DNA of 58,275 nt. Source: a virus. The stretch lies in the IMG/VR virus record IMGVR_UViG_3300028801_000014, positions 1 through 58,275 of that record. The stretch is one strand, 5' to 3'. Shown here piece by piece: positions 633 to 57,203 of this stretch. The translations under genes were made by a program, and so were the position numbers. Within the stretch, counting starts at the first letter, position 1, and every line of letters starts with the position of its first letter. The notes under the pieces are model-generated. The model saw nothing but the letters and a program-made list of their open reading frames with translations. It did not search any database and was not told where the DNA came from.

Positions 633-1664
633 TTAGCTGATTGCGGAAGCCGCATCAATCTCACGGATACGGATGGTCGTGTCAGGACCAAGCGAAGTCG
701 TGAAGTGAACGCGGTACGAAGTCCAGCCGGGGATCAGCCCTTCAGGATCGGCAACAGTTGGCTCAGCGTTCTGCACAATGTTGCACTTGATGTTCTGGTA
801 CTCACCATCTCCGAACTCGGTGTCGCCCTGTGCTCCAAGCTTGATGCTGTAGATGCCATCACGCCCAAAGATGTAGGTACGAAGCGCCGTCAGGCCAGTC
901 ACACCCTTGTAGTTCGGGGTGGTGGTAACCTGATTGCTCTGGAAGAAGTGAACGCCCGAGGACGGAAGTTCGATCATCTCGGTCAAGTCCACCGAAACGA
1001 GGTCTTCCATCTTCATCAGCCCGACCGGGGTGTGCTTCAAGATGTCGATAGGTGCGTTGTTGCTGACATCCGAAAGTACATCGCCCAATGCGAACGGGTG
1101 AATGACGCCGCAGAATGCCTTGCTTGCTTCGTCGAACGGACGTACCGAACGGCCAGCAAGAGACTGCACTGCGTTACGAATCTGGTTCAGGCTCAGCGAG
1201 GTGAAGGCTGTGGTCGAAGTTGCACCAAGCTGCACAAGCACGCTGGAGTCAACGCTGGCTGCGCCGTCAGCGGTTGCACGGACGAGACCAGACAAAGACT
1301 CGCCAAGACGGTATGCAAGCTCACGGGCGACGTTCTCAACAGTGTTGTCGATTGCCGTAGCAAGAGACAGACTGGAGAAGTTAGCGTAGTCAGCGTACTC
1401 ACCGATGGTGGCAGTCGTGGTAAGGACGGAAACGGAGATCGAGCTGCCCACGGTTCCTTCGTTGGTCTGCGCGGTGTTCGCAGCCAGAGGAACGTACATG
1501 AACATTTCGTACTGGTTACCGGACTTGGTTGGCAGGTCCAGACGCTCGGAGCAAGCTACGAACGGGGTCTGCGCTTTGAGGTTTTCACGGAACTTCTTGT
1601 CATAGAACTTTACCGTGGACTGAGGAAGGTTGCCCTGTAGATTTCCAGCAGGAGTGTAACCCAT
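633..1664 (-). CDS. major capsid protein (N4-gp56-like)
   Basis: 343 residues, starting MGYTPAGNLQ. The N-terminal segment FYDKKFRENLKAQTPF (about residues 20-35) followed by short beta-rich segments resembles the N4-gp56 family of HK97-fold capsid proteins, where this arm precedes the core. Alanine/threonine-rich composition, few cysteines, position downstream of portal and putative scaffold, a long 5' leader with two matching hairpins and a terminator right after the stop all fit a highly expressed capsid gene. A truncated paralogue of its N-terminus occurs at 47529-47843. Family assignment is by eye. Confidence 0.8.
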   Translation of the reverse strand: MGYTPAGNLQGNLPQSTVKFYDKKFRENLKAQTPFVACSERLDLPTKSGNQYEMFMYVPLAANTAQTNEGTVGSSISVSVLTTTATIGEYADYANFSSLSLATAIDNTVENVARELAYRLGESLSGLVRATADGAASVDSSVLVQLGATSTTAFTSLSLNQIRNAVQSLAGRSVRPFDEASKAFCGVIHPFALGDVLSDVSNNAPIDILKHTPVGLMKMEDLVSVDLTEMIELPSSGVHFFQSNQVTTTPNYKGVTGLTALRTYIFGRDGIYSIKLGAQGDTEFGDGEYQNIKCNIVQNAEPTVADPEGLIPGWTSYRVHFTTSLGPDTTIRIREIDAASAIS

Positions 1665-1767
1665 TGTGATTATCCTTTACTTCAAAGACATCACTTACTT
1701 CTCGCCTTCTCCTCCCAGAGATGATGAGTAGTGTGTCGCTGCCTTTTATGTGAAGACAATCCCTCTG

Positions 1768-1867
1768 CTCGTAATCCGACGAGTGTTTGCGATTGCGCGG
1801 TCAAGGTCTCTGACCGGCTTTTCCTCAGCACATATCTAAGGTGTATCGTTCCCTGTAATCCGACAGG
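1768..1867 (-). promoter_or_regulatory. two hairpins with identical loop in capsid leader
   Basis: On the minus strand the 10-mer GTCGGATTAC occurs twice, at 1855-1864 and 1771-1780. It is flanked by CCT/AGG in the first copy and CTC/GAG in the second, so both fold into hairpins with the same loop and compensating stem changes. They lie in the 218-nt gap between the GNAT gene and the capsid start, which otherwise holds no convincing gene. A protein-binding RNA element controlling capsid expression is the simplest reading, but this is inference. Confidence 0.5.
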
Positions 1868-1882
1868 ACTGTACACAGTACT

Positions 1883-2305
1883 TCAGACGAAGCGTTTCCG
1901 CATGGTCACGCCATGCTGTCGTGCTCCGTAAATGTTTGGTTCAAAGGAAGCGATGCGATAGCCCTGATCGAAGTAAAGCTTCTGTGCAGGGTTCTCGACT
2001 CTACAATGCAGCCAGCCACTTTCGTAGCTCTGCTTGTAGTGCTTCTCAAATTCTTGTAGGAGAGTTGTTGCAGCGCCCCGTCTGCGATAGTCAGGGTCTA
2101 CTGCAACACTCCAGATGTATGGTGTCCCTTTCGAGACTTCCGAGATAAGGTGCGCCTTGATGCGTTTGTCTACGATGACCCACGCTGGGTTGGAGGCAAG
2201 TATCTTGCGCAACTGATGCTTCGGACAGATGTCGTCAGGATACAGTCGCTCCACTTGATCGACTAGGTAGTCGGTCTCAGATTGCAGCGCCAGCCTGATG
2301 TCCAT
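1883..2305 (-). CDS. GNAT-family N-acetyltransferase
   Basis: 140 residues. The central segment VAVDPDYRRRGAATTLLQEF (about residues 68-87) is the classic acetyl-CoA pyrophosphate-binding loop (R/Q-x-x-G-x-A/G) on beta4-alpha3 of GNAT enzymes, preceded by the expected beta strands and followed by YFDQGY, which matches the beta6-alpha4 region. GNATs transfer acetyl groups to amines of proteins or small molecules; the substrate cannot be told. The ATG overlaps the end of the upstream gene at 2305. It sits inside the structural cluster between putative scaffold and capsid, which could mean modification of a virion component. A second GNAT is at 49211. Confidence 0.85.
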   Translation of the reverse strand: MDIRLALQSETDYLVDQVERLYPDDICPKHQLRKILASNPAWVIVDKRIKAHLISEVSKGTPYIWSVAVDPDYRRRGAATTLLQEFEKHYKQSYESGWLHCRVENPAQKLYFDQGYRIASFEPNIYGARQHGVTMRKRFV

Positions 2306-11889: not shown

Positions 11890-12013
11890 TGGCTCACGGG
11901 GCTGGGATCGAACCAGCGACCGTTCGGTTACTTTTCGAGATTCCAGAGTTGCACTGGAGCGTGGCGTTCCACATCTCGCACAGCCGAATGCTCTACCGCT
12001 GAGCTACCCGCAA
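11890..12013 (-). tRNA. Asn-type tRNA with 49-nt insertion in anticodon loop
   Basis: 124 nt. Acceptor TTGCGGG/CCCGTGA, D-arm, anticodon stem TTCGG/CCGAA, variable CGGTC and T-arm GCTGG-TTCGATC-CCAGC all match a 75-nt tRNA closest to bacterial tRNA-Asn. The anticodon loop is split by 49 extra bases. Removing them between CTGT and TAA gives CTGTTAA, anticodon GUU (Asn); removal one base later would give GUG (His). The insert has its own folds: CGAGAT/ATCTCG closing stem, hairpin GTGG-AACG-CCAC, and hairpin TCCAG-TGCAACT-CTGGA. It is far too short for a group I intron. Confidence 0.75.
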
Positions 12014-13831: not shown

Positions 13832-16528
13832 TTGCAGCCAATCACCCCGATTGACATAGAAACACTCACGCCCCCACTCAAAGTTACTTTCATCCAGAGC
13901 CTCGAAGAGCTTGCTTCTCTTCAGGATTTCTTTGCGCGTGTCCAAGCGAACGACAAAGGTGTACTCGGATGGGACGTTGAAACGACCCCGTTGAAGGACT
14001 ACTTCTTCCGGCGCTGCCGTACTGTCCAGTTTGGTAACAACGTCGAGCAGTACGTGATCGACCTCTTGCCCTTCTGCGACAACGATCCGAACCTACTCTT
14101 CTCATGCCAAGGTCAGTACGGCGCGAACCTTCCTCCAAAGCTCAAAGAGTTGATGCTCATATTGGAGCCTGTGTTGTGCTCTCGAAACTTCCTGAAGGTC
14201 GGCGTGAATCTCGGCTTCGAGTACATGACCTTCTACTGGAACTTCGGCCTGCGCACGTACAACTACTACGATTGCTCGATGGCGGAGAAGTGCATCTGGG
14301 CCGGGGCGCACTCGATGAAGGACTACGGCTACTACTCCATGAACGAGATGATGGAGCGTTACTTCCGAAAGACTGTGGACAAACAGTATCAGGAATCGTT
14401 CACTCTCGACGCAGTGCTTGAGCCGGGTCAGATCAAATACGCCGCACTCGATACGCGGTTCCCACTGAACATCATGATGGCCCAGAAGGTCGTCGCGTCC
14501 GGCATTCGCCTGAAGACTCTCAAAGAGAAGGGCAGCCCGATGGCCAAGTTCATGGAGAACCTTGAGCCTAAGAACTCCAGCAACGAGCCTATCGTCATGG
14601 GCGACAATCTCAACGAGATTGTCCAGATCGAGAATGACGCCATCGGCATGTTCGAGGACATGCACATCCACGGTGAGCGCATGGACAAGGAGAAGTGGCG
14701 CAAGCGTATCGACGGCAAGATAGCCGAGCTGACCGCGCTCTATAGCGACTCGCTCGACCCGTACTTCATCCCTCTCGTCGGCAGCAAGTACGACATAAAT
14801 ACTGATGCTGAGATCGATGCGAAGGAAGCGCAGTGGAAGGCGTTCAACGTCGTCTCCCCGGCTGAGCTGGAGCTGAAGAAACAGATCGCGGTCTACAAGA
14901 AGGCGGGCGACACTGCGGCGATGGCGCACCTCGAAATGCAAAAGGCTCTGCTTGAGCAACAGCGTAAGGACTTGAAGGAGACGCTGAAGACCGAGCACAG
15001 CGACATGAAAAAGAAGCGGACGAAGATCAAAAACCTCGCCGCCAAGTGCGAAGGCGCAGCACTCATCAACTACAGTAGCGATTCCCAGCTATTAGCGGCC
15101 CTACAAGAGATCAAGGGCCTCAAGTCGATGAAGAAGTGCGACGATGACACACTGGCGAAGTATGAGGCCAAGGGTTTCGCTATCTGCGGTTCAATCCGTA
15201 AGCTTCACACTCTTTCCAAGGAGATCGGGACGTACGGATACCAGTGGGCTACAGAGTGGACGGGCAAGCCATGCAAAGAGGAAGGGTGGTTGCACCCCGG
15301 CGACGGGCGTCTGCATTGCGTCTACAACCAGTACGATGCTGAGACTGGGCGTTCCTCATCGGAGAAACCTAATGGCCAGAACCTACCGCAGGACGAAGCA
15401 GTTCGCTCCTGTTTTATTGCTGATCCTCCTAACGAGTCCATACGTGTTTCTGATTGCTGCAATGCTGACGCGCCTCCTCGTGAGGGCATCTATGTTGCGG
15501 ACTTCTCTGTGCCCGGATTTAGGTGCTCCGCCTGCGGAGAGCTTTGTAACACCCACGCAGAAGAGTATGTAATCATCACCGCCGATATGTCCGGCGCGGA
15601 GCTTCGTATCATCGCGGAGCTGGCACAAGACCCGGTGTGGATCGGTGCTTTCGGTCGCGGCGAGGACGTTCACTCTGTAGGCACTGAGATTCTGCACGAG
15701 CAGGGCTGGGTAGTCCTTACTGAACCCGGCTGCAAGTACTATGCGAAAAAAGAGAACGGCGAACCGGCGCGGCAGAAGTGCAAATGCAAAGGACACGCTG
15801 AGCTGAGGAACGAAAACAAGAGCACGAACTTCCTGCTGGCGTACGGCGGCGGCCCAAGCAAACTCGCGCAATCAATCGGCAAGACGGTCGAGAAGGCCGC
15901 TGAGCTGATGGAGCTGCACTCCAAGAAGTTCCCGCGCATCTGGGCATACCTTGAGCAGTCTGGCAAGAATGCCTACATGAAGAAACGCTCGTTCGATATG
16001 TACGGTCGGCGTCGTCTCTTCCCAGACCCCACGTGGGATCGTGCGAAGGAGAAGGCGAAGGTTGACAACGAAGAGAAGCTGAGATTGTCACCTGAAGAGG
16101 CACAATTGAAGTACGACCTCTTCGTCAAGAACAACAACCGCAAGCCGGACAAAGAAGAGCTGTGGTTCATCGAGCACAACCAGCCGACTCAGAAAGAGAT
16201 CGGTAAGGCAATGGGCGCGATGTCAGGCTCTATCGAGCGCCAAGGAAAGAACCACGCCATTCAGGGTACGAACGCCACGATCATCAAGCTGGCGGGCGGT
16301 TGTGGGTTCGACAAGGACGGAGTGCCGTACCTGTGGCATACTCTTCCCACCTTCCGTGCGCGTCTCATCAAGATGGTGCATGACGAGCTTGTGGTACAAT
16401 GTCCTAAGCACAAAGCCACTGAGGTAGCAAAGCTGATCGGTGACGCATTCAAGCGGGCCGCAGCGGTGAAGATGACAGCAGTGGTCATGGAGTTCGATTC
16501 GAACATCGCGGAGTGTTGGAAAAAATGA
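13832..16528 (+). CDS. DNA polymerase I (family A) with 3'-5' exonuclease
   Basis: 898 residues. An exonuclease motif GWDVETTP lies near residue 46-53, followed by a DEDD-type region. Polymerase motif A is ITADMSGAELRI (catalytic Asp about 584), motif B is NENKSTNFLLAYGG (about 660-673) and motif C is KMVHDELVV (His-Asp-Glu about 849-851). It is the phage replicase. Residues about 300-480 are a long charged helical insertion in the thumb region, and 530-575 hold two C-x2-C pairs (CCNADAPP, CSACGELC) and 640-650 another (CKCKGH), unusual for PolA. The start is a TTG without a clear SD; ATT at 13823 is in frame. Confidence 0.9.
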   Translation: MQPITPIDIETLTPPLKVTFIQSLEELASLQDFFARVQANDKGVLGWDVETTPLKDYFFRRCRTVQFGNNVEQYVIDLLPFCDNDPNLLFSCQGQYGANLPPKLKELMLILEPVLCSRNFLKVGVNLGFEYMTFYWNFGLRTYNYYDCSMAEKCIWAGAHSMKDYGYYSMNEMMERYFRKTVDKQYQESFTLDAVLEPGQIKYAALDTRFPLNIMMAQKVVASGIRLKTLKEKGSPMAKFMENLEPKNSSNEPIVMGDNLNEIVQIENDAIGMFEDMHIHGERMDKEKWRKRIDGKIAELTALYSDSLDPYFIPLVGSKYDINTDAEIDAKEAQWKAFNVVSPAELELKKQIAVYKKAGDTAAMAHLEMQKALLEQQRKDLKETLKTEHSDMKKKRTKIKNLAAKCEGAALINYSSDSQLLAALQEIKGLKSMKKCDDDTLAKYEAKGFAICGSIRKLHTLSKEIGTYGYQWATEWTGKPCKEEGWLHPGDGRLHCVYNQYDAETGRSSSEKPNGQNLPQDEAVRSCFIADPPNESIRVSDCCNADAPPREGIYVADFSVPGFRCSACGELCNTHAEEYVIITADMSGAELRIIAELAQDPVWIGAFGRGEDVHSVGTEILHEQGWVVLTEPGCKYYAKKENGEPARQKCKCKGHAELRNENKSTNFLLAYGGGPSKLAQSIGKTVEKAAELMELHSKKFPRIWAYLEQSGKNAYMKKRSFDMYGRRRLFPDPTWDRAKEKAKVDNEEKLRLSPEEAQLKYDLFVKNNNRKPDKEELWFIEHNQPTQKEIGKAMGAMSGSIERQGKNHAIQGTNATIIKLAGGCGFDKDGVPYLWHTLPTFRARLIKMVHDELVVQCPKHKATEVAKLIGDAFKRAAAVKMTAVVMEFDSNIAECWKK

Positions 16529-16685: not shown

Positions 16686-16997
16686 ATGGACAGTCTATGG
16701 GAGCGCGGCGAATATCTCCTGTTCAAGGATGTGGGGAAGGCCCGTAAAGGCGGCACTACCCACGTCTTTGACGTGATGTCTAAGACCGGCGCTGCACTGG
16801 GAATCATCAAGTGGTTCCCACACTGGCGGAAGTACACGTTCCACCCCGGACCCGAAACAGTTTTCGATCCAAAGTGCTTGACAGAACTATCCGAGTACTG
16901 TACACTGAAAACAGTCGAACACAACGCAGGTAAGGGATACCCCAGAGACTATAGAGGTTTCTGCAAACCGAAGGTTGACAAGACCGATCAAGTTTGA
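16686..16997 (+). CDS. unknown protein, 103 aa
   Basis: Begins MDSLWERGEYLLFKDVGKA; aromatic-rich centre (IKWFPHWRKYTFHPGPETVF). A TTG at 16674 overlapping the upstream stop is an alternative start. Its last codons contain the promoter of the tmRNA gene, so the two are transcriptionally separate. No family recognised. Confidence 0.6.
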   Translation: MDSLWERGEYLLFKDVGKARKGGTTHVFDVMSKTGAALGIIKWFPHWRKYTFHPGPETVFDPKCLTELSEYCTLKTVEHNAGKGYPRDYRGFCKPKVDKTDQV

Positions 16998-17003
16998 TAC
17001 AAT
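16975..17003 (+). promoter_or_regulatory. strong consensus promoter of tmRNA gene
   Basis: TTGACA (16975-16980), 17-nt spacer, TACAAT (16998-17003): five or six of six matches in both hexamers with ideal spacing. Predicted start near 17010, just before the acceptor half of the tmRNA. Confidence 0.85.
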
Positions 17004-17009
17004 TCAAAA

Positions 17010-17395
17010 AGTTACGCATGGTATGAAGCTCCAAAGTCGGTAGACGGACGCGAGTTCGACTCTCGCCATCTCCACCAAAACAATCTCGTAAGCGTACCGC
17101 ATACGGGGATGTCACGGCTTCGACGGATACAGATAGAAGAGTGGACTGTGCAGGTGCCTAGCGACCTTGACTGCTGGAAAAAAAGAACTGTCACCGAAAG
17201 TGTCAGCCACAGCCGTGTCCGTTTCAGCGTTCGCAAGAGCGTTGTTGCAGCACAGCTACTTGCGGCCTAATAACCGCTGGGGCCTCTTGACGGGCCTAGC
17301 AACAGAAGGGGGAGCGATCCCCCAGTCTAAACATTTACGTGGGAAGGCTGACGAATGGATTTTCATGGGGTCGGTCGGCGGGTGATTGGGGTTGT
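17010..17395 (+). ncRNA. ssrA: circularly permuted (two-piece) tmRNA
   Basis: The 3' end of a tmRNA comes first: GACGGACGCGAGTTCGACTC leads into T-arm GCGAG-TTCGACT-CTCGC (17050-17066), acceptor strand CATCTCC (17067-17073) and ACCA ending at 17077. After a 27-nt spacer the 5' end follows: GGGGATG (17105-17111), which pairs with CATCTCC over all seven positions, then GGCTTCGACGG as in tmRNA D-loops. The tag frame ends GCA-GCA-CAG-CTA-CTT-GCG-GCC (A-A-Q-L-L-A-A) with TAA-TAA at 17268-17273 and the conserved continuation CCGC, then hairpin GGGGG/CCCCC near 17311. The order is that of permuted genes, whose spacer is excised to give an acceptor RNA and a coding RNA. It rescues stalled ribosomes and tags nascent peptides. 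The resume codon and 3' boundary are not certain. Confidence 0.9.
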
Positions 17396-17423
17396 CACTG
17401 GCGAGGGTTTATAAAGGAGATGT

Positions 17424-17702
17424 ATGTCTGGACAAGAGCAGTTGGTAAAAGGCGGCAAGAGTTCGTTTCCGTTCTTCTCTATTTTGACCTTGATTTTTGT
17501 CGTCGCTAAACTTGCTGGGTTCTTCCCGCATTCATGGTGGATTGTGTTCATACCCCTGTGGGGACCGATATCGGTACTGGTGGCACTGTCGTTGCTGTTT
17601 ATTCTGGCAGCGTTGATCTTCGCAATAGTGGGTTCCGTTATCGACGAGATCGATAAGGTACGCAGCAAGAAAAAGAAAGACGACGGTAAATGGCTCTCCT
17701 GA
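17424..17702 (+). CDS. two-helix membrane protein (TMEM185-like motif)
   Basis: 92 residues with SD AAAGGAGA. Two hydrophobic helices (about 17-35 and 45-75) flank the motif FPHSWWIVFIPLWGPI, similar to the WSWW...PLWIP signature of small phage proteins annotated as transmembrane Fragile-X-F-like. The C-terminus is basic (KVRSKKKKDDGK). Function unknown; a membrane role during infection is likely. Confidence 0.7.
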   Translation: MSGQEQLVKGGKSSFPFFSILTLIFVVAKLAGFFPHSWWIVFIPLWGPISVLVALSLLFILAALIFAIVGSVIDEIDKVRSKKKKDDGKWLS

Positions 17703-17830
17703 TTCTGTTACTCGCATTCTTCTTCCTTCTGGTTGGCGCATCTGTTACGGCGCTGGCGCTGGGATACCTCGCGTATCGAGTGTATCAGTTCTTCTACAAA
17801 CGTCGAGCGCTCAAGGCGTACGGCTTTTAG
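17690..17830 (+). CDS. single-helix membrane peptide, 46 aa
   Basis: Starts MALLILLLAFFFLLVGASV, one long hydrophobic helix, then a basic aromatic tail (YQFFYKRRALKAYGF). Overlaps the preceding gene by 13 nt. Ends six bases before tRNA-Ile. Size and topology would suit a holin or accessory membrane peptide, but nothing proves it. Confidence 0.55.
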   Translation: MALLILLLAFFFLLVGASVTALALGYLAYRVYQFFYKRRALKAYGF

Positions 17831-17835
17831 ATTGT

Positions 17836-17910
17836 TGTGAGGTAGCTCAATGGCAGAGCAATCGCTCGATAAGCGAGAGGTTGAAGGTTCAACTCCTTCT
17901 CTCACAACCA
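17836..17910 (+). tRNA. tRNA-Ile(GAU) with C33
   Basis: 75 nt with CCA encoded. Acceptor TGTGAGG/TCTCACA, T-arm GAAGG-TTCAACT-CCTTC. The anticodon arm reads ATCGC-TCGATAA-GCGAG, so relative to the standard CTGATAA loop positions 32-33 are UC instead of CU. The D-arm contains the start codon of the HNH frame. Confidence 0.8.
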
Positions 17911-47536: not shown

Positions 47537-47843
47537 ACGTGGCTTTCTAAAAGGCATTGCAGCATGGGCGGCGGCCCCGGTAATCATGCCGGTGCTTCCT
47601 AGCATATTCGTTGCTAACCCTGTGGTCAAAGCGGTCACAGGAGGTTATTCTCCTGCCAGCAACTTGAGCAACCCACAGGCGCTCACGGCAATCTACTACA
47701 ACAAGAAGTTCATTGCCAACCTGAAGGCGCAGACACCCTTCATGAGAGTATCAGAGTTGCGCGACCTACCACCGGTCGATGAGTCTAAAAAGGTTCAGTT
47801 CTTCATGTATCAACCGTTGCACGCGGATTTGACAAACGTATAG
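47529..47843 (+). CDS. Tat-like signal fused to truncated capsid N-arm
   Basis: 104 residues. MNRRGFLKGIAAWAAAPVIM has the twin-arginine motif R-R-G-F-L-K and hydrophobic core of a Tat signal. From residue 39 the protein aligns with the major capsid protein (GYSPASNLSNPQ against GYTPAGNLQGNLPQ; KKFIANLKAQTPF against KKFRENLKAQTPF; FFMYQPLHAD against MFMYVPLAAN), then stops where the capsid continues for about 280 residues. The stop codon TAG lies within the operator of the promoter at 47829. Could be a gene remnant or a secreted or membrane-bound capsid decoy. No SD is evident; the ATG overlaps the upstream stop. Confidence 0.7.
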   Translation: MNRRGFLKGIAAWAAAPVIMPVLPSIFVANPVVKAVTGGYSPASNLSNPQALTAIYYNKKFIANLKAQTPFMRVSELRDLPPVDESKKVQFFMYQPLHADLTNV

Positions 47844-49210: not shown

Positions 49211-49642
49211 ATGGCGAAGAAGAAAAAGATCGTCGTGAAGCACATTGACGCAGCCAAGAACACGCAGGTCATCAAGACTGCGTTTCTTGAAGCTGTGCCA
49301 GATATGATCGAGATCGGTGCAGTAGGCGGTATGTGGTCACCCATCCGTGGGGATCAGGCGTGCTTCTACGTGGAAGACAAGGGTAAGGTAGTTGGAATCC
49401 TCCAGTACTTCTTCGATGAGGATGACGATTCAGGCTGGGTTCAACTCGGCTGGGTCAACAAGGCGTATCGCGGGCGTGGTATCTACAAGGCCATGTGGAA
49501 GAAGTTTGAGAAAGCGACTTTGAAGCACGGCGGCAAGAAGGTCTGTGGTCTAGTCGTTCACGGTAACGAGCCGATGGAGAAGGCCGCTGCTGCAATGGGG
49601 CGCAAGATAACCAGTAGTGTGTGGACCAAGGAGCTGAAGTAA
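49211..49642 (+). CDS. GNAT-family N-acetyltransferase
   Basis: 143 residues. VQLGWVNKAYRGRGIYKAMW carries the R-G-x-G-x-Y/A acetyl-CoA loop; KKVCGLVVHGNEPMEKAAAA is the following strand-helix; a basic N-terminus (MAKKKKIVVKH). Its stop joins the RNA ligase ATG (TAATG). Acetylation of tRNA, ribosomal or toxin-type targets is possible given this neighbour, but the substrate is not known. Confidence 0.8.
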   Translation: MAKKKKIVVKHIDAAKNTQVIKTAFLEAVPDMIEIGAVGGMWSPIRGDQACFYVEDKGKVVGILQYFFDEDDDSGWVQLGWVNKAYRGRGIYKAMWKKFEKATLKHGGKKVCGLVVHGNEPMEKAAAAMGRKITSSVWTKELK

Positions 49643-50823
49643 TGTTGCTAAAAGACTACCTCGACGTAGACAAGCTTGAGCAGTATATCGCGGAGGGTCT
49701 AGTTACCCGTCGCGCTCACCCTGAGCTTCCGTTGTCGATCCTCTGCTATAGCAAGCAGGCGACCTTTGATAACGTCTGGGACGACATCACCATCAAGTGC
49801 CGTGGTCTCATCGTGGACGACAAGGGTGTCATCATCTCTCGTCCGTTCGAGAAGTTCTTCAACATCGACACGCTGGACCGGCCTGAGACTCTGTTCACCA
49901 ATCTGCCGGACCAACACCCTGCTGTCTTCGACAAGCTGGATGGGTCACTCGGTATCTTCTACGAGTACAAGGTAGGGAACGATACGTTCTTCGGTGTCGC
50001 GTCCAAAGGATCATTCACGTCTGACCACTCCAAGTGGGCGACGTACTGGTTCAGTAAGCACTGCAAGAACCACCAGTGGCCTGCGGGCTACACACCAGTC
50101 TTTGAGATGATCGCGCAGGCAGTTCAACGCCACGTGGTTCATTACGAGATCGAAGATCAACTAGTCTTACTGGCGCTCATCAACAACGAGACCGGCGAAG
50201 AGATTAGCTACAACGAGCTGTACCACTACGCATTCCTGAACGGACTAAAGACCGTCGAGATTTTTGCTAAGACGGTGAGCACGGTTCTAGTAGAGGATCG
50301 ACCGAACACGGAGGGCTACGTGCTGTCGTACTGGCGGCCCAACCTTCCGCCTTTGAAGATCAAGGTGAAGCATGAGACCTTCCTGAAGCTCCAGAAGATT
50401 GTTCACGCGGCGACCCCGAAGAACATCCTTGAGGCGCTGACGAACGGGGACTACGATATCATCGAGACATGGACGAAGGATGCTGGCCGACCGGAGCTTG
50501 TGAGCTTCGTTGAGGAGTGGCAGAAGACCTTCACCACTGCGTACGCTGGCATCATGCTTCAGACCAAGAAGATCGTAGACAATGCGCTTATCCGCAACTA
50601 CGAGAGTCGCAAGTCTGTTGCTGAGTTCTTCCTAACCGAGAAGGACGGCAAGTACTCTGGCCTCTGCTTCATGGCCTACGATGGCAAAGACCCGTCGCAG
50701 GCTGCGTGGAAGATGGTGCGCGACGAGTACCGTGAAGAGTTGAACCGGCCCGTTATGGGTGACCCAGATGATGACGACAACAACGGCGTCAAGCTGGTGA
50801 TGGAAGAGGAGAGTTATGCCTAA
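49642..50823 (+). CDS. rnlA: T4 Rnl1-like RNA ligase
   Basis: 393 residues. FDKLDGSLG at 96-104 is the nucleotidyltransferase motif I (K-x-D-G-S/N) with the AMP-accepting Lys98; T4 Rnl1 uses Lys99. CRGLIVD and RPFEKFFN (about 53-74) match the conserved segments before it, FEMIAQ, EGYVLSYWRP and LKIKVKHETFL match motifs IIIa-V. It joins 5'-phosphate and 3'-hydroxyl RNA ends; T4 Rnl1 repairs tRNA cut by host anticodon nucleases. The next gene is a HAD phosphatase overlapping its stop, and its position mirrors an RNA end-healing unit. Confidence 0.9.
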   Translation: MLLKDYLDVDKLEQYIAEGLVTRRAHPELPLSILCYSKQATFDNVWDDITIKCRGLIVDDKGVIISRPFEKFFNIDTLDRPETLFTNLPDQHPAVFDKLDGSLGIFYEYKVGNDTFFGVASKGSFTSDHSKWATYWFSKHCKNHQWPAGYTPVFEMIAQAVQRHVVHYEIEDQLVLLALINNETGEEISYNELYHYAFLNGLKTVEIFAKTVSTVLVEDRPNTEGYVLSYWRPNLPPLKIKVKHETFLKLQKIVHAATPKNILEALTNGDYDIIETWTKDAGRPELVSFVEEWQKTFTTAYAGIMLQTKKIVDNALIRNYESRKSVAEFFLTEKDGKYSGLCFMAYDGKDPSQAAWKMVRDEYREELNRPVMGDPDDDDNNGVKLVMEEESYA

Positions 50824-55589: not shown

Positions 55590-55906
55590 TGTCAAAGCCC
55601 AAGATTTACGAACTCTCGAAAGAACAGAACGACGCGATGGGCAGTCTTGCTAACGGGAAGAGTCCGATCAAGATTGCCGTCGAGCCTAACCCTGAGGATG
55701 ACCAAGAGACAAAAGATCGCTTGACAAAAGTACTCGGACAGTGCGACGATCTAGTCAAGCTTGGATTCATCAAAGACATCACGAACAAGTACGCAGAGGA
55801 CGTAGCGATATCGAAGCTCAAGACTGGGCGCGGCATCAAGATGTTCCTCATCACCGATGTGGGCTACGATATGTTTCACGGCCCTAAGAACCCCACGATC
55901 CACTAA
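55589..55906 (+). CDS. unknown protein, 105 aa
   Basis: GTG start overlapping the helicase stop. MSKPKIYELSKEQNDAMGSL; possible winged-helix end (LKTGRGIKMFLITDVGYDMF). Unknown. Confidence 0.55.
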   Translation: MSKPKIYELSKEQNDAMGSLANGKSPIKIAVEPNPEDDQETKDRLTKVLGQCDDLVKLGFIKDITNKYAEDVAISKLKTGRGIKMFLITDVGYDMFHGPKNPTIH

Positions 55907-55922
55907 CCTGCAAAGGACGCCC

Positions 55923-57203
55923 ATGATTACGAACCAGTCTGACCTCGACGCCGTACTTGGAGAAGGTGCATCCAATACCATTCTCGGGTACAACACTATC
56001 CTTGACCGCCGCGACATCCCCGAGCCGAAGAAGGCCAACCATCAGGCCAAGATCGTGAAGATCGAAGCCCTCCTGCCCCACACCAATGCCGACTCCCTCT
56101 CCCTCGTTCAGATCGATGGCTTCCAAGTCGTCGTGCGTAAGGGTCAGTTCCATCCGGGTGATCTGGGCGTCTACATCCAGCCAGACTCCATCGTGCCCCA
56201 AACCGAGGCGTTCAAGTTCATCTGGGAAGCGTACGTCGGCCTCGACGGTACGGTGCCTGAGAACAGACGGCGTATCACGGTACGCAAGTTCCGCAAGGAG
56301 TGGAGCGAAGGTCTCTTGCTTCCTCTCACTGACTTCACTGAGCTGACGGACGGCGCGACCGGCGCGGTCGATCCTTTCTGGAACGCACCGGGTCTGGACA
56401 TCTCCGACATCATCGGTGTGACACACTACGATCCCGATGTCGTCGAGAACACACAGGGAGCCAAGGCGTCGAGTGCCAACTCACCGCGCCGAAAGTTCCG
56501 GTACCCACGTACTCTCCGTGGCTGGTTCCATCTCATCAAGCGTATCATCGCTGGGCGCTCGTTGCGTGAGACGACCAAAGACGTGTCGTTCAGCATCCCC
56601 GTCTTCGACGTGGAGGGCTTCAAGAACTACCCGAACACGTTCGAGGAGAACGAGCAGGTAGTTGTTACTGAGAAGGTCCACGGATCGAATGCGCGGTTCA
56701 TCGCCATCGATGGTGAAATCTTCGTGGGTTCCCGTAACCAGTGGAAGGCCGACAACGGTTCGACCGTCTGGCACAAGGTTCTCAAACAGAACGAAGACCT
56801 GACGCGCTGGCTGCTTGAGCACCCCGGCCATGCAATCTACGGAGAGGTGACACCTACCCAGAAGAACTTCCCGTACGGGCCGAAGGACGATGCTGTGGAG
56901 GGTGAGGTTCGGTTCTTTGCCTTCGACATCCTGACCCCGCAACGCGAGTGGATGGACTACGGTTCCTTTAGCTTCTCTCTGCTGTCGTACCCCGGCATCG
57001 AGATGGCACCCCTCCTGTACCTTGGGCCGTACAACAAAGACAAGATCATGACGCTGGTGGATGGACCTTCATGGGTCTACCGTGCTAACCACATCCGCGA
57101 GGGTGTCGTCATCAAGGCCACCAAGGAGCGCACGGTTCGAGGACTGGGCCGAGCGATGCTAAAAATCGTGTCGAACACTTTCTTAGAGGGTGACTCTAAG
57201 TAA
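55923..57203 (+). CDS. Rnl5/DraRnl-like RNA ligase
   Basis: 426 residues. VVVTEKVHGSNARFI has motif I (K-x-H-G-S/N) with AMP-accepting Lys251; GEIFVGSRNQW (motif III) and AIYGEVTPT / VRFFAFDI (IIIa), REGVVIKATKER (motif IV/V) follow. The N-terminal 150 residues form an OB-like domain as in Deinococcus RNA ligase (DraRnl), which seals 3'-OH/5'-P ends on RNA templates. The family differs from the Rnl1-like ligase at 49642, so the phage has two distinct ligases. Preceded by SD AAAGGAC; start is ATG 55923. Confidence 0.85.
   Translation: MITNQSDLDAVLGEGASNTILGYNTILDRRDIPEPKKANHQAKIVKIEALLPHTNADSLSLVQIDGFQVVVRKGQFHPGDLGVYIQPDSIVPQTEAFKFIWEAYVGLDGTVPENRRRITVRKFRKEWSEGLLLPLTDFTELTDGATGAVDPFWNAPGLDISDIIGVTHYDPDVVENTQGAKASSANSPRRKFRYPRTLRGWFHLIKRIIAGRSLRETTKDVSFSIPVFDVEGFKNYPNTFEENEQVVVTEKVHGSNARFIAIDGEIFVGSRNQWKADNGSTVWHKVLKQNEDLTRWLLEHPGHAIYGEVTPTQKNFPYGPKDDAVEGEVRFFAFDILTPQREWMDYGSFSFSLLSYPGIEMAPLLYLGPYNKDKIMTLVDGPSWVYRANHIREGVVIKATKERTVRGLGRAMLKIVSNTFLEGDSK

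Follow-up and report, generated by a model that had tools for sequence, protein, structure and literature searches.

A circularly permuted tmRNA gene with a long basic tag in a phage related to a podovirus of Acidobacteriota

Two-piece tmRNA belongs to a few bacterial lineages. The alpha (RF01849), beta (RF01850), and cyano (RF01851) permuted families have been merged into a single model, RF04321, as described in the available text of PMC11915505. Two-piece tmRNA in phages is already known as well: the accessible sections of PMC9004378 report 402 phages carrying tmRNA, with 133 unique structures among them; ARAGORN pointed to a two-piece form for 53 of these structures, 50 of which came from marine or aquatic samples. 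Additionally, a molecule similar to the tRNA-like-only RNA of phage DS6A inhibits tmRNA, according to those parts of PMC4131195 and PMC11915505 that were available. Here, we analyzed a linear IMG/VR record of 58,275 nucleotides (IMGVR_UViG_3300028801_000014; the whole stretch is referred to as the window), for which an earlier sequence-only reading had proposed a circularly permuted, two-piece tmRNA.

The window carried a permuted tmRNA gene from 17011 to about 17325 on the plus strand, in the order promoter, acceptor piece, spacer, and coding piece (Table 1), such that the 3′ half of the tRNA-like domain preceded the 5′ half, both in direct reading of the sequence and in the RF04321 (tmRNA_permuted) match (17015–17270; 71.1 bits, E 1e-11, gathering score 47). 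The permuted order predicted by the sequence-only reading was thus recovered by the merged covariance model, while the alpha, beta, and cyano subtype models that it had also named all scored below their own thresholds. ARAGORN likewise called a permuted gene (tmRNA*), but gave it an implausible tag, GKADEWIFMGSVGG, from a position farther downstream; that tag was rejected, as it lies past the 3′ hairpin and is without an Ala-Ala end.

Table 1. Sequence features of the permuted tmRNA locus in the window.
Feature	Position	Strand	Detail
DNA polymerase gene	13832..16528	+	upstream neighbor of the tmRNA, conserved
sigma-70-type promoter, TTGACA-N17-TACAAT	16975..17003	+	sequence match
promoter boxes	TTGACA 16975-16980; TACAAT 16998-17003	+	17 nt between boxes; TG before -10
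acceptor piece (3′ half of tRNA-like domain, first in gene)	17011..17077	+	RF04321 match; 5′ end predicted
T-arm	17049..17066	+	5 pairs, loop TTCGACT
acceptor 3′ strand and ACCA	17067..17077	+	CATCTCC 17067-17073; discriminator A plus CCA 17074-17077
spacer	17078..17104	+	27 nt; removal expected
coding piece (5′ half of tRNA-like domain, tag, 3′ hairpin)	17105..17325	+	3′ end predicted
acceptor 5′ strand GGGGATG	17105..17111	+	G3 pairs U70; with D-loop region to 17126
D-loop GGCTTCGACGG	17116..17126	+	
GTGC	17148..17151	+	proposed partner of GCAT 17016-17019, inter-piece helix; by inspection
proposed pseudoknot PK1	17152..17177	+	by inspection
PK1 stem 1, proposed	AGGT 17152-17155 with ACCT 17164-17167		
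PK1 stem 2, proposed	CTAGC 17158-17162 with GCTGG 17173-17177		present in predicted fold
tag frame VTESVSHSRVRFSVRKSVVAAQLLAA and UAA UAA	17190..17273	+	resume codon GUC; codons 17190-17267, TAATAA 17268-17273
CCTAGCAACAGAA motif and GGGGGA/TCCCCC hairpin	17295..17323	+	hairpin 17308-17323; close to expected 3′ end

The acceptor stem, with G3:U70, the T-arm, and CCA were found in permuted order only, and the joint fold of both pieces included the T-arm and the acceptor stem. The stem had been described as seven perfect pairs, but really comprises six Watson-Crick pairs and G3:U70, a pair that is the mark of alanine tRNAs. The 27-nt spacer between ACCA and GGGGATG was present as predicted, and the proposed consensus promoter matched at 11 of 12 positions, the only such match on the plus strand of the window, with one other on the minus strand. 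The beginning of the acceptor piece, TACGCAYG, was conserved among relatives. At the other end, the RNA more likely stops near the 17308–17323 hairpin than at 17395, the last position of the stretch given in the sequence-only reading; no terminator-like site was found there on the plus strand. The minimum folding energy of 16995–17340 was ordinary (z −0.73; 22 of 100 shuffles equal or better).

The nearest isolate to the window phage was Tunturi_3, with identities of 95% for the major head protein, 74% for the portal, 62% for the terminase, 61% for the helicase, and 59% for the DNA polymerase; it is a podovirus isolated on Tunturiibacter psychrotolerans, of the Acidobacteriota, as given in the available portion of PMC11924767. 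Because of this protein similarity, an acidobacterium is likely also the host of the window phage; among the window-like tmRNA group, which was picked by eye from sequence, hosts are known only for Tunturi_3 and for the more distant Tunturi_4, the latter infecting T. empetritectus. RF04321 exceeded its cut-off in 11 of 36 phage records, specifically the window, three copies of its phage, Tunturi_3 (63.3 bits), Tunturi_4 (79.2 bits), and five contigs (52.2–79.1 bits). The other 25 had no permuted match; many of these are short fragments, and five are of 42–72 kb. Within 2 kb of the tmRNA was a DNA polymerase gene in the window, in Tunturi_3, and at five of seven other loci, the exceptions being Tunturi_4 and L488. 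A DNA search with the tmRNA against phage records returned no match, and neither did the exact acceptor-arm pattern in genome contigs; no relatives emerged via the Tunturi_3 DNA polymerase, and none of 10 records related by the Tunturi_4 portal was over the RF04321 cut-off.

Several other genes in these phages relate to RNA or to ribosome rescue. A protein with an RF-1 (GGQ) domain was rejected as a constant partner of the tmRNA, being over the cut-off in two of 20 phage records (Tunturi_3 and Tunturi_4) and weak in one further record, while neither the window nor its 96.7-kb copy had one. In Tunturi_4, a gap of 4 nt separates the end of the RF-1 (GGQ) gene (PP885687.1, 43532–44293, minus strand) from the permuted tmRNA match that comes after it, and the two may form a ribosome-rescue operon. 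The phage locus L351 has a homolog at a distance of about 1 kb from its tmRNA. Tunturi_3 (L065–L068) has an annotated RNA 2′-phosphotransferase (gp90) next to two annotated RNA ligases, which suggests an RNA repair set. The window itself holds two RNA ligase genes (49621–50823 and 55857–57203) and a tRNA on the minus strand (11893–12013; RF00005, 47.1 bits) that was missed by ARAGORN and has about 49 extra bases in its anticodon loop, so that cut-and-ligate splicing of this tRNA is conceivable. Separately, a 65-residue stretch at 47643–47831, distant from the head gene, matched the major head protein of Tunturi_3 at 49% identity.

We also examined pairing between the two pieces. Acceptor stems varied across the group (GGGGATG/CATCTCC, GGGCTTG/CAAGTCC, and GGGCCGG/CCGGTCC), bearing in mind that our pairing-based detector demands full pairing with G3:U70. 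In 17 dereplicated genes, the acceptor 5′ arm paired at −19.9 kcal/mol with its own coding piece versus −15.9 (sd 0.79) with swapped pieces (0 of 20,000 permutations), in a comparison where the L066 coding stretch was cut at the wrong CGAC, the L077 acceptor stretch was doubtful, and L079 (CCACCC) was added by hand. The window alone, at −16.8 and rank 18 of 41, was no better than swapped pieces. By inspection, one four-base arm covaries among genes (GCAC/GTGC, GCAT/ATGC, and GCAA/TTGC). In the phage tmRNAs L428 and L430, tags and acceptor pieces were nearly the same but the pre-tag (PK1) segments differed strongly, a pattern resembling a swap of the PK1 module.

The sequence-only reading had raised the question of whether the host tmRNA is also split, and the best evidence is that it is not. 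Of 37 named Acidobacteriota genomes, chosen by title from at least 119 loci, 30 had one-piece tmRNA over the cut-off (one of the 30 being a contig-end fragment of 49.5 bits), and permuted tmRNA was found in none of the 37. In a second Acidobacteriota sample, drawn around a genome titled Verrucomicrobia, 28 of 30 genomes had the one-piece form; the phylum sample consists of the same records as a 396-genome set considered below. Tunturiibacter (Edaphobacter) lichenicola M8UP30 also has a one-piece gene. Judging from these genomes, the likely hosts use the one-piece form, unlike the phage.

Taken together, these results make it probable that the gene encodes a functional phage tmRNA, giving extra rescue capacity in infected cells of a host that is probably an acidobacterium with a one-piece tmRNA. 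A single transcript from the promoter at 16975–17003 would fold into a tRNA-like domain broken by the spacer, which host RNase P and 3′ tRNA nucleases would cut away, leaving the acceptor RNA and coding RNA joined through base pairing. The host alanyl-tRNA synthetase would charge the acceptor piece via G3:U70, and host SmpB and EF-Tu would carry the tmRNA to stalled ribosomes. There, translation would restart at GUC 17190 and append Ala and then VTESVSHSRVRFSVRKSVVAAQLLAA before stopping at UAA. None of nine phage records searched had an SmpB gene, hence the host partner would be needed. Counting against this reading are the result of the window in the pairing comparison, its ordinary folding energy, a resume codon that departs from the GCC of most relatives, and the 25 of 36 records with no permuted match, many of them short fragments.

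With respect to where the permuted gene came from, it may have been permuted independently, for example from a one-piece ancestor that duplicated in tandem and then lost its outer halves, instead of being inherited from a known permuted bacterial lineage; this is a tentative reading that we do not favor. In a tree of 129 rows and 150 columns, from which beta and cyanobacterial permuted genes were absent, the 25 rows of the window group clustered with one-piece tmRNAs, and a branch with 99/98 support separated them from 21 alphaproteobacterial-type permuted genes; 23 of the 25 rows belonged to a 32-row set (95/92) with eight other phage genes and one one-piece gene; Tunturi_4 and L072 fell outside this set. 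Also consistent with a separate permutation were the RF04321 scores, which were 52–79 bits for the group versus 126–163 for 30 bacterial permuted genes, the absence of any subtype match at gathering score, and the presence of tandem one-piece tmRNAs in one Acidobacteriota genome (L223). However, neither a grouping with alphaproteobacterial permuted genes (p 0.185) nor one with Acidobacteriota (p 0.175) was rejected by AU tests on the 150 columns, several branches, including that of the window, were long, and the best-scoring subtype was beta_tmRNA (RF01850; 44.5 of 84 bits), whose genes, like the cyanobacterial ones, were not in the tree.

Turning to the peptide, the anticipated long basic tag with a QLLAA end followed by TAA-TAA was borne out. 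The tag of the window, VTESVSHSRVRFSVRKSVVAAQLLAA, comprises 26 codons, and an open tag frame follows the resume codon and is closed by a stop. Its start was set at GUC 17190 because the pre-tag context aligns with that of relatives, reading ACU-GUC here and ACU-GCC in most, the resume codon accordingly being GUC in the window versus GCC in most relatives. Among 20 genes whose tag starts were set by eye (L072, L078, L366, L409, and some others being left out), 18 tags were 26–33 residues long and two were of 10 residues, 16 were net positive, and 12 had a common core such as KVLAFP, NVLAFV, or KVIPFV.

It is possible, though unlikely, that the RNA is a working tmRNA whose long basic tag gives rescued proteins another fate than that conferred by the host tag, such as another protease, slower decay, or use by the phage. 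The lengths, charge, and shared core of the group tags fit such redirection, as does the comparison with T. lichenicola, in which the tag is AEPQFALAA, of nine codons, making the tag of the window phage roughly three times longer. Nevertheless, the common core is absent from the window, Tunturi_3, and Tunturi_4, and a hydrophobic residue plus Ala-Ala ends 16 of the 20 tags, that of the window included. Since the Ala-Ala end is retained, decay of the ClpXP type is what would be expected by default. Moreover, synonymous/non-synonymous base differences in three close tag pairs (4/1, 0/1, and 4/16) do not demonstrate selection on the peptide. The suggestion in the sequence-only reading that the tag steers proteins away from host proteases was therefore not supported. 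We consider improbable the combined scenario of a fourth, independently permuted tmRNA lineage in Acidobacteriota phages, derived from a one-piece gene and with its tag selected for a non-host destination of rescued proteins; if it were true, one cell would contain host and phage trans-translation systems with different outputs.

A passive or decaying passenger from another host lineage appears very unlikely. Phages often bear spare tRNAs, and just part of the group, 11 of 36 records, has the tmRNA, both of which would suit a passenger, yet the halves, frame, and promoter are intact, and the place beside the DNA polymerase gene is preserved across divergent relatives. We give as little credence, or slightly less, to a decoy, in which the RNA would mainly titrate SmpB or block host tmRNA, as has been proposed for the DS6A-type tRNA-like-only RNA in the available text of PMC4131195; whereas the DS6A RNA is without a tag, the full tag frame, stop, and pre-tag structure are kept in the window and in most tabulated relatives.

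RF04321 matches just over the cut-off are not specific, and score alone is no proof of a permuted gene. Specifically, RF04321 was over its cut-off in 13 of the 396 Acidobacteriota genomes (53.2–71.7 bits), and all 13 matches overlapped a one-piece tmRNA (148.8–198.2 bits), upstream of which was a tRNA-Asp in 12 cases and a second, tandem tmRNA in L223. With all 13 explained as artifacts, the idea that the sampled Acidobacteriota have permuted tmRNAs of their own was rejected. The L223 pair (1264–2028, minus strand), the junction of which scored 61.6 bits as permuted, is a plausible step toward a permuted gene. Of 17 low-scoring matches over the cut-off in Pseudomonadota (47–65 bits), 14 of the 15 fetched were one-piece genes; L574, the fifteenth, and L576 (113 bits) were assigned to neither form. 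Because such artifacts arise near the cut-off, a neighboring tRNA or tmRNA must be checked for. Neither ARAGORN nor Rfam called a tRNA between 12013 and 17836 of the window, the stretch 17271–17886 was free of T-arm motifs (the next, at 17887, is inside a tRNA-Ile), and the one-piece model RF00023 reached 26 bits, under its cut-off, with no T-arm or acceptor 3′ strand after the tag. The pairing-based detector, which requires full acceptor pairing with G3:U70 and missed the alphaproteobacterial permuted form (0 of 30), listed 46 distinct permuted genes among 326 loci. A false permuted call caused by a tRNA standing ahead of part of a one-piece tmRNA, which explains 12 of the 13 Acidobacteriota matches and is in keeping with the one-piece Pseudomonadota loci, is thus refuted for the window to near certainty by these upstream and downstream searches, by the same permuted form in relatives, and by the detector, which called the window permuted and was correct on 76 of 76 bacterial one-piece loci, the 13 artifact loci included.

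What is new is an acidobacterial phage lineage with permuted tmRNA, a mismatch to the likely host form, and long basic tags. Phages with permuted tmRNA growing on what are probably one-piece hosts bring both forms together naturally in systems that can be cultured, namely Tunturi_3 and Tunturi_4 on Tunturiibacter, and since phage and host tmRNA would be distinguishable by form and tag in one cell, the question of why phages carry tmRNA becomes directly testable. Within the collection of papers searched, we found nothing on tmRNA in Tunturi phages or on permuted tmRNA in Acidobacteriota.

The tmRNAs of mycobacteriophages and Bacillus phage G are, as far as is known, one-piece, unlike that of the window. 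What they share with it is being phage-borne, as stated in the available text of PMC4131195, and the phage DS6A RNA has, as in the window, a tmRNA-type tRNA-like domain, but without the tag (available parts of PMC4131195 and PMC11915505). The accessible text of the paper describing the Tunturi phages (PMC11924767) does not contain the words tmRNA, ssrA, or permuted. The bacterial permuted tmRNAs, as presented in the portion of PMC11915505 that was available, have the same gene order as the window gene, an acceptor stem, and a tag then stop, whereas the window falls below every subtype gathering score and reaches 71 bits with RF04321, as compared with 126–163 bits for 30 bacterial genes. Closest in kind are Methylophilales phage Melnitz and other aquatic phages, which, as in the window, carry a permuted tmRNA gene; the available sections of PMC9004378 assign it to the alphaproteobacterial lineage and describe it together with a glutamine riboswitch. 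Unlike the Melnitz type as characterized there, the window gene belongs to a different group, encodes a long basic tag, and occurs in relatives of phages that infect Acidobacteriota.
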